25,018 nucleotides of DNA from a virus, in the IMG/VR virus record IMGVR_UViG_3300008267_000337, positions 1-25,018 of that record, one strand, 5' to 3'. Every line of letters begins with the position of its first letter. The stretch's first letter is position 1. Made by a program: the position numbers and the translations under genes. The notes beneath the pieces are model-generated. The model saw only the letters and a program-made list of their open reading frames with translations. It ran no database searches and was not told the DNA's origin. Positions 6,375-19,377 of this stretch are shown here, in pieces.

Positions 6375-8339
6375 TTAGCTTATCTCTGCCAGTAGATTGT
6401 TAATCTTGTCATTCAAGACCTTGAATAGCTTGGCATTGCCTGCCTTATTAGCCCTCTCAGCTGCAAGTGATAGCTGCTGAATAGCCAGAGGTAGCTTGCC
6501 TAGATTATCAGCCTCTTCTGCCGGAGTGGAGGTGTCTTCTACATCATCCATAAGAGGCACTAATCCAGACTTAATCTGGAGCTGCTTCTCTGCTGCCAAG
6601 GCATAGACATCAGCCTGCTGCTGGCTGAATGATAGCTCATACCATTGAGGGTTTTCCTCTAGTTTCTGCATCACAAAGGCTGCTAGGTTAGCACTTAGAA
6701 TGTAGTCCAATTGAGTGCAGCCATTGCTTGAGAGCAGCACAGTCTTCTCATCGGTGGTCTTGAATGGCAATGGATCAAGGCTACTAAGCAGCTTCAGGTA
6801 GGTCTTCTTCATGCTATTGTCACCATAGAGCTTTTCGACATAATCCATCTCAATCCCTGCAATAATCAGAGGGTTAAAGTTGCCTGAGATAGCCTTGTTA
6901 AGCTGCTCACCTACCATCTCTGTGGTCATGATATCATAATCAGTAGGCACAGTAATCTGAGGCAGTGCTGCCTGTATCTTATCACTGTCCATAAGGCTGC
7001 TGCTGAAAAGGCTATTGTACCTCTGGTACATAATGTAAAAGCAGACCTTCCTATATACTTGAGCCAGATGTACAGTCACTGAGAAGCAGAAGGTATTAAG
7101 CTCCTTCCGGTCATACTCCTTGGCTATGCCTGACTGAGCTGCTGGTATCTGACCAAGCAATTCCAGACCAATAGCCTTGAAGCCTTGAAACTCCTTCTGC
7201 ACAATGTCCTCCTGGAATAGTCTGACAGTCTCAGTTGGTCTCTCAATGTATCCAGCCGGAGGTACAGGTGGTATCTGTGGATTAGGATTGATAGCACTAG
7301 ACCTATCAATGTTAATCTCCATAAGGCCAAATGGTGAGCTGCTAGCCCTTCCAGAGCCGGAGCAATCATTACAGCTAACCTTCTCCTCCTTACGATTAGT
7401 TCTTATCCCTGTGCCATTACAGGTCTTACAGGGAGACATCTTCAATGCCCACTTCTGTGGCAGGGCATGCATTGCCCATAATATATTTAAGTCATCAGTT
7501 CTGAACAGCACCTCATTCCAAGCAGGAAGGCAAGGAGCAAGCACCGAATCATAGACTAACTGACCATCTTCTTCTTCGTAGATAATGTTGCCTACCTTAC
7601 AGACTGGCAGATAGCCGAACTGATAGGGCATGATAAAGACCTGGAAAGGCTGGTCATAGGTGTACTCATTGACCTGCCTGAACAGCATCAAGCCCTCAAC
7701 AGTTATGCAAAGGAACTGATCCCACTTCCTCCGGTTCATGTCCTTATAATCCTCTGCCTTGATGATTACATAGTCCTCACCTTCCCAGATTAGGTCTTCA
7801 GACTCTACTATCTGAGGGTAAGGTCTTGACCAATCCAGAGTAGTAGTAGCTGCCGGGTCTTCAATAAATTCATTGTAGTCTGGCAGAGTTATTACTATGG
7901 CATTGGCATCCTTCAGGTAGGTCTTCAGGAAGACATTAAAGAGCCACTTCTCAAGGCTTCCTGTCTTCGGCAGCTCATCCTCCACATAGTACTGCAGAGT
8001 GTTGTTGCTAAGCCCTATGCGCTCTGCTATGCCTGTTTTCTGGAAGTCATCCTCGAACTTAATCTTAAAGTCATCAGCCTGCTGAATCTTTTGCAGGAAA
8101 GTGTAAACCCTTCCGGTGGCAGTAGTAGTAGGAGCTTGCCATCTTCTCCTCCTGTACTCCCTCATCCAAGGCTCTTCACTCGGATGCTGAGTAATCAAGA
8201 GCTTTTCGGGGTACTCATTTTCAAAGTGATACTCAAGCTCTTCAGCCTTTTCTCTAGCCTCCTCAATGTAGTCGTGCCTGCCTTCACGGATTTTCCGGTC
8301 TAGCAACTTCGATAGTAGTACCCCGATTAACTCTTCCAT
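6375..8339 (-). CDS. Probable portal protein with internal zinc-finger motif (654 aa)
   Basis: Size, position directly before a MuF gene, and the helix-rich C-terminal half (LNKAISGNFNPLIIAGIEMDY; LSLAAERANKAGN near the end) make this the best portal candidate. The portal forms the dodecameric ring through which DNA enters the head. No universal portal motif is visible, so the call rests on context. Unusually, residues 304-330 contain CKTCNGTG and CNDCSGSG, a two-repeat CxxCxGxG signature like the DnaJ zinc domain, probably binding one zinc. A Pro-rich linker follows (INPNPQIPPVPPAG, 350-363). It starts 6 bases after the upstream tail gene's stop. Confidence 0.65.
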   Translation of the reverse strand: MEELIGVLLSKLLDRKIREGRHDYIEEAREKAEELEYHFENEYPEKLLITQHPSEEPWMREYRRRRWQAPTTTATGRVYTFLQKIQQADDFKIKFEDDFQKTGIAERIGLSNNTLQYYVEDELPKTGSLEKWLFNVFLKTYLKDANAIVITLPDYNEFIEDPAATTTLDWSRPYPQIVESEDLIWEGEDYVIIKAEDYKDMNRRKWDQFLCITVEGLMLFRQVNEYTYDQPFQVFIMPYQFGYLPVCKVGNIIYEEEDGQLVYDSVLAPCLPAWNEVLFRTDDLNILWAMHALPQKWALKMSPCKTCNGTGIRTNRKEEKVSCNDCSGSGRASSSPFGLMEINIDRSSAINPNPQIPPVPPAGYIERPTETVRLFQEDIVQKEFQGFKAIGLELLGQIPAAQSGIAKEYDRKELNTFCFSVTVHLAQVYRKVCFYIMYQRYNSLFSSSLMDSDKIQAALPQITVPTDYDIMTTEMVGEQLNKAISGNFNPLIIAGIEMDYVEKLYGDNSMKKTYLKLLSSLDPLPFKTTDEKTVLLSSNGCTQLDYILSANLAAFVMQKLEENPQWYELSFSQQQADVYALAAEKQLQIKSGLVPLMDDVEDTSTPAEEADNLGKLPLAIQQLSLAAERANKAGNAKLFKVLNDKINNLLAEIS

Positions 8340-8345
8340 GTTACT

Positions 8346-9239
8346 TTATTCTCCGCAATTAACGACTAGAGTAATTGTCTCCTGACCGAATACACAGCCA
8401 TACTCATTGGTAACGGTCACAGTGAAAATGTAAGTGCCGACAAATGTTTCTGGATTCCAAGTAATCACACCAGTTTCAGTGTCAATCACAAGACCAATCT
8501 CAGTGATGTCATCACTTCCATCAGCCTGCTCAATTGACCAGACTTGTGCTGGCGCACCAGAGATAGCTCCAATGTTCAGGACTGCTGAAAAAGTCACAGT
8601 CTGTGGGTCTGTACAAGCACTTGTGATAGTGTTGCCAACATAGGTACTACCTGAACCTCCGGTAAAGCTAATGATGTAGTACAGCCCCTCAAGGAAGCTA
8701 TCGGTGTCGAACTCATAAGGCAGAGGGTTCACCTTGCTCACCCAGTTAACTGTTACTTCAGCCATCTGGTAAGTGTTCAGGTCAGCTGTGATGATTGGGT
8801 CACCAATTACAGTCACATAGTAGCCAGAGGCATCCCAGATTCTGCCGGGAGTGAAATAGTAAAAGTCGAAGTTCTGAGCAGTAGCTAGAATATCATTGTA
8901 GAACTGAACATTGCTCTGAACTACTCCCTGCATGTCCTGATAGGTCAGGGTGTGAGTCTTGGCTAGAGCTTTAGTGTTTTGCATACCCCTACCAGCAGTA
9001 GTAGCTGTCTCAGGTTTTGGCTTTTCTCCGCTAGTGTTGAACACAAGGTAAGCCTCACCATCAAGGTAACGCTCATAGAGAGCAGCTATCCAGAGGTCAG
9101 CAGTTGACTTCTCATTAGCAGTTAGGGCAGCAGACTTGCGAACATAAGCCACCGCCACGATTTTATTCTGAAACTCTGGGTCGCAGAGGAAATTCTGATA
9201 ACAACCTACATCAGGGCAGGTCAGTGAAAATATTGACAT
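8346..9239 (-). CDS. Probable tail-tube or other virion structural protein with C-terminal Ig-like domain (297 aa)
   Basis: The N terminus has a Cys cluster (MSIFSLTCPDVGCYQNFLC). The middle looks like an alpha/beta structural subunit (VTVIGDPIITADLNTY; AEVTVNWVSKVNPLPYEFD around residues 140-180). The last 90 or so residues resemble a putative Ig-type domain: TGVITWNP followed by GTYIFTVTVTNEYG. Tail-tube proteins often carry such add-on Ig domains displayed on the virion surface, so a major tail protein is my preferred guess. A capsid protein with a surface Ig domain cannot be excluded, because no other major capsid candidate is evident. Confidence 0.5.
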   Translation of the reverse strand: MSIFSLTCPDVGCYQNFLCDPEFQNKIVAVAYVRKSAALTANEKSTADLWIAALYERYLDGEAYLVFNTSGEKPKPETATTAGRGMQNTKALAKTHTLTYQDMQGVVQSNVQFYNDILATAQNFDFYYFTPGRIWDASGYYVTVIGDPIITADLNTYQMAEVTVNWVSKVNPLPYEFDTDSFLEGLYYIISFTGGSGSTYVGNTITSACTDPQTVTFSAVLNIGAISGAPAQVWSIEQADGSDDITEIGLVIDTETGVITWNPETFVGTYIFTVTVTNEYGCVFGQETITLVVNCGE

Positions 9240-15669: not shown

Positions 15670-18201
15670 TCAGCTTCTGAACCGATTGTTGAGGATTTTG
15701 GTAGTCCTCCGTTCGGTGCGAATATACTTCTCAAAACCTTTCTCATCCATGTTAAGCTGGGTTATGGGTAGCCCTTTCAGGATGCTGCCTAACTCATCCA
15801 GCTTGCCATACATTGGATTGGTTGCCTGAGAGCCTCCGTTGTATCTGGAAGCATAGAACAGCTCTTGCTTACTTAGTGCATGGTTAGGAATTACTTGAGA
15901 ACCTTTTGGAAGATCAACGAGAGTGGCTGTTGGTGGAGTGAAGTAGACCTTGCCTGATGCAGTCACTACCTTCTCAACTCCTCGCTCACCTACCATTGCC
16001 CTACCTCCTTCGAAGGCTTTGCCCTTAGTACCTTCGGCAAACTCAGGCACAGGCTGAGCTAAGATAAACCCTATCTGTGCTGCCTGGTTAGCTAGGGTCA
16101 GAGCAGCTAAAGGCAGGGTAACTGGATTGCTTGACCACTTAGCTATTATGGAGGCAGTTTCAAAGATTACTCTGGCAATGGCTGCTGCCTGCTCAGCTTG
16201 GAAGGCTTTAGTCTTGAGCTGCTTCTCCTGCTCTGCCCTCCGGTTATTAATCTCTTGAATCTTCTGCTCATTGCCTTCAGCCATTGCTACCTCATTGTCA
16301 TACCTCTTATTCATGGCAGCAATCTCATTGTTGATAGAGGTCTGGTACATGTTGCTGAAGCCACTTAGTAAAGTTCCTGTAAGCTGGAATGTAGCATCAA
16401 TCTTTGCCTGCTTATCTGCTTCAGCCTTTTCTCTTGCTTGTTTCTCATATTCCAGACCTTGCTCATATTGCTTTTGCCATGCCTTCATTTGGGCTAGCCT
16501 ATTATCATTCCTTTTCTTCTCCTCTTCCTCCTCACTTTTAGTGATGTCTTTTTGGAACTTCTCGACTGCATCCTTTGGCTTTAAGAATAGCTTAGCATAA
16601 GCTTTCTCATATTCTTCAATTGATTTCTGAGCAGTAAGCTTAGCTATCTCAACTTCTCTCTCACTTATGCCTATGCCTCTCTTCTGGAAGTCCTCTTTAA
16701 TCTTAGCTACCTTCTGTTGGTAGATGATCTCTTGAGCCATTCCAGCCTCTTTGCCTGCTCCTTGAATCTCAAGTATTAATGTCTGTTGATCTTTCTCTAG
16801 TTGAGCAAGTTTAAGCTGATTCTGATACTGCTCTTTCGTTTGAGCAAGTTGTTCTTCTCTTGCCTTCTTAGCATTTTTTGCAGCTAATTCTGCTGCTGCC
16901 TTATCTGCTTTACTTTTGGCTGCTGCTGCTGCATCTGCTTTAGCTTTTTCATCACCTCTCAGCTTCAGCTCCTCCTTAATTGCTCCATTGACTCCATCAA
17001 GTGCAGCTTTTTGTTCTTTTGCAGCCTTTGCTTCTCTTCCGCTTGTTAATGCTCTGGTAGCTTGAACTGCTGAAAGATCAAGTAACCCAAGCGTACTAAC
17101 TTTGATAAGCATCCCATATTTACTTATGGTCTTGCTGGTCTTGTCATACTCCCCTGCAACACTATTAAGAGACTTGAGCTTTTCATTATTAGCTTTTAAT
17201 TCAGCCTGAAGCTGCTCATCTGTTAGCTTAGCTATCCTGCCCTTTGCCCCTTTATAAGACTCAACCTCAAGGTCAGCATTCTTTTTGCTTTCATCCTTGC
17301 CTAGCTTAAAGATTGAGTTAATTCCAGCCATGAAGTCGCTGGTAAGCTCAAGAGCTGACTGGAGGATAGGGCCTAACATTGTGCCTATCTGATTCAAGAA
17401 TCCATCCCAGGCATCACCCAAGTTATTGACCTTGCCTCCTAATGTTTCACTGATTGCTGCTGATGCTCCGGCTACTCCTTCATAGTCTCCTAGGCTGACT
17501 AGATAATCTCTTATAGCCTCATTTGTGAACTTAGTCTGAGTTTCTACTCCCTTAAAGCTAAAGGTTACCTGATCCCCTGACTTGCTTGCTCTTACTCCAA
17601 ACTCCTTTAGCCTTTCAAATTCTCCAGTTTGAGCATCAATTATTGCTTCAGCTAATTGGTCGAATGACTTGCCTGTAGATGAGGCTAGGTCACCTAGCTT
17701 ACGCATCTGATTTACATTAGGTGTAAAGCCTTGGTTAGCCAGCTTTACAAACGATGCAGTGAGTTCTTGCACCGAAAATGGTGTAGTCTTTGCAAACTCC
17801 TTAATGCTCTCCAGAGCAACATTAGCAGCAGCTCCGCTTCCTAATGTGTTCTTAAGCACCGAACCCATCTTTTCAAACTCAGCAGTAACCTTAAACACTG
17901 ACTGAGCAAAGCCAATGACAGCTTGAATGCTGAATGCTCCGGCTATTGCTGGGCCGATTGGCCCTAGGTTCTTAAGAAAGCCATCAATACCACCTCCTGC
18001 TTGCTTGAATGCACCAGACATCTTACTGCCTGCATCGGAAGCATTAGAGCTTGTCTTATTAAGTTCTGAATTGAACTTCTTTAGCTCCCTTATTGCATCC
18101 TGCTCTTCTGCCGTGATTTTATCAAAACCCTGCTGTGCCTTGGATAGCTCAGTAGTGTCTATGACATACCTAATCTTAATGTCATTGCTTGAAATAGCCA
18201 T
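15670..18201 (-). CDS. Tape measure protein (843 aa)
   Basis: The protein sets tail length and is expelled with DNA during infection. Regions in order: an N-terminal segment (IKIRYVIDTTELSKAQQGFD), a hydrophobic Gly/Ala/Ile stretch near residues 75-105, a tape-measure core (SIKEFAKTTPFSVQEL; LANQGFTPNVNQMRKLGDLA; LGDAWDGFLNQIG), a long Ala/Lys-rich coiled coil (about 410-480), a hydrophobic pair near 690-735, and a C-terminal FAEGTKGKAFEGGRAMVGERG motif typical of such proteins. The start is set at 18201 (MAISSND): an upstream in-frame ATG at 18243 lies inside a terminator hairpin and is rejected. At about 0.15 nm per residue the tail would be near 125 nm. Confidence 0.9.
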   Translation of the reverse strand: MAISSNDIKIRYVIDTTELSKAQQGFDKITAEEQDAIRELKKFNSELNKTSSNASDAGSKMSGAFKQAGGGIDGFLKNLGPIGPAIAGAFSIQAVIGFAQSVFKVTAEFEKMGSVLKNTLGSGAAANVALESIKEFAKTTPFSVQELTASFVKLANQGFTPNVNQMRKLGDLASSTGKSFDQLAEAIIDAQTGEFERLKEFGVRASKSGDQVTFSFKGVETQTKFTNEAIRDYLVSLGDYEGVAGASAAISETLGGKVNNLGDAWDGFLNQIGTMLGPILQSALELTSDFMAGINSIFKLGKDESKKNADLEVESYKGAKGRIAKLTDEQLQAELKANNEKLKSLNSVAGEYDKTSKTISKYGMLIKVSTLGLLDLSAVQATRALTSGREAKAAKEQKAALDGVNGAIKEELKLRGDEKAKADAAAAAKSKADKAAAELAAKNAKKAREEQLAQTKEQYQNQLKLAQLEKDQQTLILEIQGAGKEAGMAQEIIYQQKVAKIKEDFQKRGIGISEREVEIAKLTAQKSIEEYEKAYAKLFLKPKDAVEKFQKDITKSEEEEEKKRNDNRLAQMKAWQKQYEQGLEYEKQAREKAEADKQAKIDATFQLTGTLLSGFSNMYQTSINNEIAAMNKRYDNEVAMAEGNEQKIQEINNRRAEQEKQLKTKAFQAEQAAAIARVIFETASIIAKWSSNPVTLPLAALTLANQAAQIGFILAQPVPEFAEGTKGKAFEGGRAMVGERGVEKVVTASGKVYFTPPTATLVDLPKGSQVIPNHALSKQELFYASRYNGGSQATNPMYGKLDELGSILKGLPITQLNMDEKGFEKYIRTERRTTKILNNRFRS

Positions 18202-18231: not shown

Positions 18232-18257
18232 AAAAAAAGCCACCCGATTGGATGGCT
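18232..18257 (-). terminator. Intrinsic terminator upstream of the tape measure gene
   Basis: In minus-strand RNA, AGCCAUCC pairs with GGGUGGCU (8 bp including one U-G pair) around a 4-base loop, followed by seven U residues. It ends transcription coming from the terminase and chaperone genes. Confidence 0.85.
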
Positions 18258-18281: not shown

Positions 18282-19090
18282 CTAACCCTTTACTCTGTTT
18301 TTCTTCTTCTTTAGGTCGCTAATATAAGCATTATAAATCAAGTAGTACTCGTAAACTGGCCTTTCGACCAGATGCTTAATTTCTCTAAGATGTCCACCTG
18401 TGATTGCAAACTGCTCATCAAATCGCTGTCTGTGCTGTCTAATGACTGAAGTGTAATAATGTGCTTCAGGTTGTTTATGTTTTGCAGAGTTTCGCCCTGT
18501 AAATAGGTCGGGAAATTCTGACTGTATTCGGTCAAAGAGGGCAGATAGGCGTACTCCGGCAGTTTCAAAAAAAAACCCTCTACATCATTGTGCTTCATCC
18601 AATGCTCCATTTTCTTCTTATTGTATGGATACTGGTAATCTAGTGGGTTCTCCTCTTCATCAAAGTAGATAACTGTTGCCAGCTTGAGCTGCCTGGTCAG
18701 GCTCATGCTGATGTCCAGCTGCTCCTTGAGTCTGGATGCTAAGATGCCTATCTCATAGAGCTTCTTCTCATCCTTCTTCTTTCGGTCAGTGATTAGATTA
18801 ATCAGGCCATTATTCCATCCCTTGAGGAAGTCAGGGTTAATCTGCCATAGTTCCTCTGTAAATATATCCCTGGCAGCTATTGCCCTCTGGAATGGCACAT
18901 TTACTTCCGTAGTAAACTTAAAGTAATTGACTCCACCAGATGTGAATGCAAACTCAATTTGATCCCACCGCTCTTGTGGAGCTACTCCTCTGTAATGTAT
19001 TCGGCCAGCTTCTCCTTGAAGAGGAGCTTCTTCTGCCATCGGTTCAGCAGGAGGAGGCACAGATGGTTTGCGCCTAAAAAGATTAAACAT
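18282..19090 (-). CDS. Frameshifted long form of the tail-assembly-chaperone candidate (about 269 aa)
   Basis: If ribosomes slip -1 on the U9 run at 18567-18575, translation from ATG 19090 continues in a frame open to TAG 18284-18282. That frame holds 97 sense codons from just behind an upstream TGA and has no ATG or GTG, only a late TTG, so it cannot easily be made from its own start. The extra region reads as a normal protein (FAITGGHLREIKHLVERPVY, then EYYLIYNAYISDLKKKKNR) and extends 54 bases past the zero-frame stop, filling a gap that would otherwise be empty up to the terminator. A gene in this position before the tape measure commonly uses -1 frameshifting (lambda G-GT). A homopolymer sequencing error is the main alternative. 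Confidence 0.65.
18338..19090 (-). CDS. Tail-assembly-chaperone candidate, zero-frame form (250 aa)
   Basis: The gene immediately precedes the tape measure, the usual place for tail assembly chaperones. The first 174 residues are common to both forms: a Pro/Glu-rich start (FRRKPSVPPPAEP), a beta segment (WDQIEFAFTSGGVNYFKFTT), and a helical charged middle (LITDRKKKDEKKLYEIGI; ATVIYFDEEENPLDYQYPYN). After GFF at about residue 174 the zero frame continues 76 residues rich in Leu and Ser to TGA 18340-18338. In lambda the short form is abundant and the slipped form rare; that ratio cannot be judged here. Its first 109 bases overlap the membrane-protein gene upstream; a later in-frame ATG at 19039 would reduce this. 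Confidence 0.65.
   Translation of the reverse strand: MFNLFRRKPSVPPPAEPMAEEAPLQGEAGRIHYRGVAPQERWDQIEFAFTSGGVNYFKFTTEVNVPFQRAIAARDIFTEELWQINPDFLKGWNNGLINLITDRKKKDEKKLYEIGILASRLKEQLDISMSLTRQLKLATVIYFDEEENPLDYQYPYNKKKMEHWMKHNDVEGFFLKLPEYAYLPSLTEYSQNFPTYLQGETLQNINNLKHIITLQSLDSTDSDLMSSLQSQVDILEKLSIWSKGQFTSTT
18566..18575 (-). promoter_or_regulatory. Putative -1 ribosomal frameshift site (U9 slippery run)
   Basis: In minus-strand mRNA the zero-frame codons read GGU UUU UUU UUG AAA. A tRNA pair on UUU UUU or UUU UUG can re-pair perfectly or nearly so one base back. The -1 frame has a TGA four codons before this run and is then open for about 97 codons. No strong downstream stimulatory stem was identified by eye. 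Confidence 0.65.
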
Positions 19091-19377
19091 AAGTAGAAAG
19101 GGTAATTAAATATGAGATAACTGATGACCAGGTACTGCCAAGCACCAGAGCAGAATGGACATTCACCCAGCGGCTTTGCCCAGTTCATGGGTAGCCTCTG
19201 GATTAGGGAGAGATACCACTGCCCCAATGGGTGATCCTCCAGCAGATAGTCCAGAAACAAGGAGAAAGATGCGCTGAGTGCAGCTATGAGCAGCAACATC
19301 AGCATGCTCTGCATCGTGTGGTAATTCGACAATGCAGCAGCCTCTACGCTTGCCACCGCAGCTAGATTCAATGTCAT
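18982..19377 (-). CDS. Integral membrane protein with CxxC motif (131 aa)
   Basis: Hydrophobic segments are visible near residues 23-43 (QSMLMLLLIAALSASFSLFL) and 83-112 (YLVISYLIFNYPFYLCLIFL, LLLL). Between them lies GECPFCSGAW, a Cys pair just before the second membrane region. Small membrane proteins with a CxxC before a Trp are seen in the DUF1360-like group, and I would place it near there with low confidence. A membrane protein between terminase and tail genes is unusual; it could act in DNA entry, superinfection exclusion or membrane remodelling. The start overlaps the previous stop as ATGA, and the 3' end overlaps the chaperone candidate by 109 bases. Confidence 0.6.
   Translation of the reverse strand: MTLNLAAVASVEAAALSNYHTMQSMLMLLLIAALSASFSLFLDYLLEDHPLGQWYLSLIQRLPMNWAKPLGECPFCSGAWQYLVISYLIFNYPFYLCLIFLGANHLCLLLLNRWQKKLLFKEKLAEYITEE

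Follow-up and report, generated by a model that had tools for sequence, protein, structure and literature searches.

A -1 frameshift is usual for the gene that immediately precedes the tape measure gene, and the known tail assembly chaperones of this class share little sequence among themselves (PMC5009743). Lambda G/GT, like the gene described here, is located immediately ahead of the tape measure gene, and its -1 slip adds a second domain to the shared N-terminal one (PMC5009743). Similarly, P2 E/E+E' depends on a -1 slip at T6G, a T run located ahead of the tail length gene (PMC3931495). The nearest annotated relative of the present locus, judged by the tape measure protein (50% identity over 215 residues), is the Flavobacterium phage vB_FspM_pippi8-1 of the Winoviridae, in which the gene before the tape measure gene, gp038, ends in a slip-prone A_AAA_AAG; frameshifting into gp039 at this heptamer, unannotated there, is our reading of the sequence. 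Two frames can also be joined by transcriptional slippage on a conserved nine-base run (A9/T9), as in Thermus dnaX and IS elements (PMC1088944). In potyviruses, expression of P3N-PIPO involves a frame switch that opens an embedded second frame, with long dual coding after the slip (PMC4552492).

Here we analyse a gene apparently of this kind in an environmental viral sequence (IMG/VR record IMGVR_UViG_3300008267_000337), of which the whole stretch of 25,018 nucleotides studied is referred to as the window. The best reading, to which we assign a probability of roughly 0.75, is that the gene encodes a lambda G/GT-like tail assembly chaperone in which a -1 ribosomal slip provides a second C-terminal domain. 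An earlier reading, made from the sequence only, had proposed a programmed -1 frameshift with a long overlap before the tape measure gene, and this proposal is supported by the conservation of the slip site, the frames, the tails, and the gene position across a family of relatives.

Organization of the locus

The features of the frameshift locus in the window are as follows:

18982-19377, minus strand: upstream gene for a small putative membrane protein, with very weak DUF1360 similarity
18338-19090, minus strand: zero-frame gene, 250 residues plus stop; a shared N-terminal domain of about 174 residues, followed by the zero-frame C-terminal tail
18569-18575, minus strand: slippery heptamer U_UUU_UUU, in phase as GGU UUU UUU, within the T9 run at 18567-18575
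18341-18568, minus strand: dual-coded stretch, 76 zero-frame codons past the heptamer that are read in the -1 frame as well
18282-18575, minus strand: -1 frame extension; 97 codons counted from the slip site, then a stop
18238-18257, minus strand: terminator-like hairpin with T run, in the gap separating the -1 stop from the tape measure gene
15670-18201, minus strand: tape measure protein gene, with ATG at 18201 and an alternative GTG at 18243 in the list of open reading frames

Read directly from the sequence, the T9 run (18575-18567) has the codons GGT TTT TTT TTG, exactly as the sequence-only reading had given them for the U9 run in the transcript. Its account of the -1 frame is also accurate; a TGA lies in this frame four codons ahead of the run, and the frame then stays open for 97 codons, past the zero-frame stop (18340-18338, 76 codons beyond the heptamer), to its own stop at 18284-18282. 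The dual-coded length is about 230 bases, and the predicted -1 fusion protein has 269 residues. Peptides such as LSIWSK in the zero-frame tail (zero tail) and HLVERPVYEYYLIYNAYISDLK in the tail encoded by the -1 frame (-1 tail) would distinguish the two products. The motif GGT9GA occurs once in the window, against 0.01 expected. When the zero-frame protein is fixed and its codons are redrawn, the probability of an open -1 frame is 0.0006, and in the reverse redraw, with the -1 protein fixed, the probability of an open zero frame is 0.02.

The hairpin at 18257-18238 corresponds to the terminator that had been placed downstream of the -1 frame at 18257, and a comparable hairpin is found in 103 of 109 family members as compared with 16 of 550 random windows. 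It may hold expression of the tape measure gene under that of the upstream gene; in HK97, a putative terminator is also annotated ahead of the tape measure gene. At its other end, the frameshift gene is overlapped over its first 36 codons or so (18982-19090) by the upstream membrane-like gene, which is read in a different frame. This overlap is present in all 94 sequences tested and measures 61-178 nt. With the N-terminal and C-terminal overlaps counted together, about 45% of the frameshift gene is dual-coded.

Elsewhere in the window, the gene order between 5507 and 21084 is unusual in that the terminase gene adjoins those for the tail chaperone and the tape measure protein, with the portal gene and a gene that we take to be Mu gpF-like some 11-15 kb further downstream, past the tail genes. 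The portal-like protein (6375-8339; phrog_7376, 1.8e-6) contains an insert resembling a DnaJ-type CxxCxGxG zinc finger (PF00684, E 3.9e-4, below the Pfam cut-off). Between the tail module and the portal gene, a 297-residue protein (8346-9239) has a C-terminal Ig-like domain (PF05345, 2.1e-6). Two adjacent small open reading frames of 73 and 77 residues at 521-953 are clearly similar (TAVEWLF.SLWEEPKDKMTW) and represent a tandem duplication.

Conservation of the slip site

Relatives were collected by scanning IMG/VR with the shared N-terminal domain, with a motif of the -1 tail alone, and with divergent members as queries. The DNA motif of the -1 tail alone independently recovers the same family with homologous -1 tails, and N-terminal identity to the window goes down to about 62% among the relatives. 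No relatives were found among the INPHARED phages, and none of 56 pattern hits in GTDB genome contigs was confirmed as a relative. The slip site could be inspected in 114 distinct environmental viral sequences and reads GGT TTT TTT TTG (108 sequences), GAT TTT TTT TTG (1), GAT TTT TTT TTA (2), or GAT TTT TTT ATT (3). The run is T9 in 111 and T7 in 3, and U_UUU_UUU is kept in phase in all of them. The three T7 sequences have an A-flanked run with the exact in-phase heptamer, and retain both tails. As for the distribution of these forms, the six GAT-type sequences occupy a few scattered positions among T9 lineages in a tree of the N-terminal domain with many unresolved forks.

Slip-site and start-codon counts were made on 110 complete distinct sequences, window included. 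Both Phe codons of the slip site are TTT in all 110; TTC accounts for 57% of the Phe codons upstream in the same gene, and four invariant or nearly invariant upstream Phe columns each show a mixture of TTC and TTT. The codon preceding the slip Phe codons is GGT in 104 sequences and GAT in 6, with GGT representing just 21% of the upstream Gly codons. The conservation of the heptamer phase and of the synonymous TTT codons thus exceeds the need for particular amino acids, in line with a site of the X_XXY_YYZ type. T8 and T9 of the run need no explanation of their own, because a change at either position replaces an amino acid in one of the two frames.

Both frames are open in all 110 complete sequences. 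Counted from GGT/GAT, the zero-frame opening is 79, 81, 85, or 88 codons, and 70 codons in one further clade, which leaves 67-85 codons after the heptamer across the family; the zero-tail stop positions are discrete and conserved by clade. The -1 frame opening among the relatives is 92-104 codons. The lack of ATG and GTG in the -1 frame, remarked on earlier for the window, extends to the family: ATG is absent from codons 1-60 of the -1 frame in all 110 sequences, and the first ATG, GTG, or TTG past the slip is at codon 68 at the earliest, with a TTG ahead of the slip in four sequences. An independent start of the -1 frame was rejected on this ground. Because the -1 frame is without a start codon of its own, the -1 tail can be produced only as a fusion. 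In one relative (L367), what looks like an indel lies upstream of the slip site and not at the site itself.

The only exception to the two-frame layout among the relatives is contig L013 (426-1247), where the N-terminal part and the -1 tail share one frame. L013 retains the T9 run and, in the other frame, an intact zero tail, and the extra base is located downstream of T9, between a sequence resembling one of the clades and an L172-like sequence. From its sequence, L013 looks like a chimeric assembly of two clades or a very recent one-base indel. An interpretation as a natural ancestral fusion was set aside, given that T9 and both tails are kept and that the extra base falls at the apparent clade junction. 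Relatives with one uninterrupted frame that lack a homologue of one of the tails were sought, and none was found; five further scans for a single-frame ancestor, with the -1 tail motif and divergent members, returned dual-coded sequences in every case checked.

Selection on the two tails

Substitutions in 53 nearest-neighbour pairs were sorted into four classes by whether they are synonymous in the zero frame and in the -1 frame; this is a simple count, and the pairs are not fully independent. In the overlap, the ratios are 0.34 (0.23-0.47) and 0.12 (0.07-0.18) for the zero frame, and 0.39 (0.28-0.53) and 0.13 (0.09-0.20) for the -1 frame. The upstream single-coded stretch, which served as control, gives 0.04-0.08 for the real frame and 1.0-2.3 for fake frames. 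When evolution under one frame only is simulated, the ratio of the other frame becomes 0.77-1.33, and a new stop appears in 41-55% of the pairs, whereas the real sequences have no stop in either frame. The contrast between the overlap ratios and both the fake-frame and simulation controls is large. Because the overlap ratios are far below those of the fake-frame and simulation controls in both frames, this comparison across relatives confirms that purifying selection acts in both frames and that both tails are maintained as protein.

The pairwise identities of the tails are equal (0.66 and 0.65), and codon usage relative to the genome, expressed on the same scale, is -0.002 for the -1 tail, -0.161 for the zero tail, and 0.061 for the upstream control. 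Because the codon usage of the -1 tail is nearer that of the genome, this suggests that the -1 frame is the older one and that the zero tail was overprinted on the -1 tail.

Two alternatives to dual coding can be weighed against these data. An indel error in the homopolymer, introduced by sequencing or assembly, would mean that the run is really T8 or T10 and that the gene has one product only, of 269 residues, as the sequence-only reading had allowed. Such errors are common, and contig L013 does show the single-frame arrangement, but its frame change is caused by an extra base further downstream, and T9 and both tails are present. Moreover, the T9/T7 phase is identical across more than 100 independent contigs, the zero-tail stop positions are kept clade by clade, and the zero tail is under selection like the -1 tail. 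Independent assemblies with differing flanks and run lengths (GG-T9, GA-T9, and GA-T7) all preserve one phase, which refutes the error explanation and makes it extremely improbable. It is also quite improbable, if less so, that the -1 tail alone matters and that the zero tail is an incidental by-product, held open by the constraints on the -1 tail. An open zero frame is not very improbable in a single sequence once the -1 protein is given (P 0.02), the -1 frame is the better fit in codon usage, and the zero tail is rich in Leu, Ser, Thr, Asn, and Gln, a composition that is associated with overprinted sequences. However, simulated evolution constrained by the -1 frame only gives zero-frame ratios of 0.78 and 1.27, far from the real values of 0.34 and 0.12, the intervals of which are below 1, and introduces zero-frame stops in about 41% of the pairs. 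The equal conservation of the two tails (0.66 vs 0.65) likewise speaks against a by-product.

Proposed frame switching and probable role of the gene

We infer the frame switching itself, the product ratio, and the ribosome as the agent along the following lines. Most ribosomes would stay in the zero frame and produce the 250-residue protein, composed of the N-terminal domain and the zero-frame helical tail. A minority would move back by one base at U_UUU_UUU, a heptamer that allows both Phe tRNAs to pair again, and the product would be the 269-residue fusion with the same N-terminal domain and a different C-terminal domain. Unlike in lambda, the non-shifted form would also end in its own conserved domain, encoded by the same DNA as the -1 tail. 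No conserved downstream stimulatory RNA structure, which is common but not obligatory in ribosomal frameshifting, was detected with RNAalifold over 25 diverse sequences, and there is no conserved Shine-Dalgarno-like sequence just 5' of the slip site, where the codons are variable. In E. coli, U_UUU_UUU is reported to be less slip-prone than A_AAA_AAG, and in lambda, a low level of the long form is sufficient, at 30:1 (PMC5009743).

If the parallel with lambda holds, coating of the tape measure protein would fall to the N-terminal domain, with the -1 tail bringing in the tail tube protein. The window tape measure gene is identified by matches to phrog_5062 (2.8e-43), phrog_1716 (6.8e-32), and TMP_3 (2.4e-10), and a tape measure gene follows right after the -1 stop in all 94 testable relatives. 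The upstream order is conserved too, with terminase, a 131-residue protein, and the small membrane-like protein. Neither product has a sequence match in PHROG, Pfam, or PDB, and the search of the tails against phage proteins brought no support in this respect; fold searches returned only generic helical-hairpin matches typical of chance. In AlphaFold2 models, the N-terminal domain consists of a beta hairpin and helices, the zero tail is a helical hairpin (mean pLDDT 69), and the -1 tail folded alone is mostly helical (pLDDT 62), the confidence of both tail models being moderate. The position and architecture of the gene point to a chaperone role as the best reading. The earlier proposal of two chaperone forms with wholly different C-terminal domains is supported with regard to the two domains, both of which are selected, while the designation as chaperone follows from gene position and has no counterpart in sequence or fold matches.

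Two further alternatives concern the agent of the frame switch and the function of the products. The same two products could arise by slippage of RNA polymerase, if some transcripts carried U10 and yielded the fusion by ordinary translation; some U8 transcripts would then also be made, on which translation would stop at once. The presence of T9 in 111 of 114 distinct sequences, longer than the heptamer requires, would agree with this, as would the lack of conserved stimulatory RNA structure in the 25 sequences and the known behaviour of runs of nine A or T, which tend to cause slippage in bacteria and can serve in recoding, e.g., in Thermus dnaX (PMC1088944). In T9GA sequences, loss of one T creates TTT TGA, an immediate stop (window 18565-18577), and polymerase slippage, if real, could here add a third, truncated product. 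On the other hand, the three T7-only, A-flanked sequences keep both tails and the heptamer phase, although a T7 run is normally too short for efficient polymerase slippage, and dual coding also explains the retention of T8 and T9. Polymerase slippage is accordingly a possible but less probable agent, and the exact heptamer phase, the sufficiency of T7 in one clade, and the established occurrence of -1 frameshifting in genes at this position (PMC5009743) favour ribosomal slippage, to a moderate degree and not decisively. As for function, it is unlikely that this is a real frameshift gene with another role, such as that of a tail completion or scaffold protein encoded before the tape measure gene. 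This would be in keeping with the lack of matches to known tail chaperone families and folds, and with upstream neighbours that are a small membrane-like protein and an unassigned 131-residue protein and not a recognised tail tube gene. Yet a -1 frameshift in a gene placed directly before the tape measure gene (94 of 94) is the usual signature of the chaperone class (PMC5009743), and in pippi8-1, what looks like a G/GT pair occupies the corresponding position.

In this phage lineage, we consider it more probable than not that the frameshift of the chaperone gene selects one of two functional C-terminal domains, that an older T-like domain was overprinted with the zero tail, and that tail assembly needs both forms. 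This raises testable questions regarding the role of the C terminus in the unshifted chaperone and the evolution of two domains on one stretch of DNA. Because the -1 domain has no start codon, gene callers would miss it in a sizeable family of environmental phages.

Comparison with known systems

The conserved nine-base run is reminiscent of transcriptional slippage in Thermus dnaX and IS elements, but in the window family, one clade has T7 only, and the run has the phase of a tandem-slippage heptamer. The long dual coding after the slip resembles that of P3N-PIPO, which differs in that it belongs to a plant RNA virus and arises by transcriptional slippage, with proteins and roles unrelated to those of the window.

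Overlap lengths were compared with lambda, P2, and pippi8-1, with no claim to a record, and the slip positions in lambda and P2 were taken from the annotated records. In lambda G/GT, to which the window gene has no detectable sequence similarity, the zero frame ends 5 codons past GGGAAAG; the 76-codon continuation in the window, which is under protein selection, is indeed far longer, as the sequence-only reading had stated. The P2 zero frame continues for just 6 codons past the heptamer, and that of pippi8-1, whose gp038 and gp039 show no similarity to the window products in profile comparison, for 1 codon, as compared with 76 in the window. A slip site near the zero-frame stop is a typical, although not strictly defining, trait of G/GT genes, from which the window family departs. 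With the slip 1-6 codons from the zero-frame stop in lambda, P2, and pippi8-1, the short form in these phages is essentially a truncated long form, whereas the short form in the window family instead ends in a domain of about 76 residues that is itself under selection, encoded by DNA that overlaps most of the other domain.
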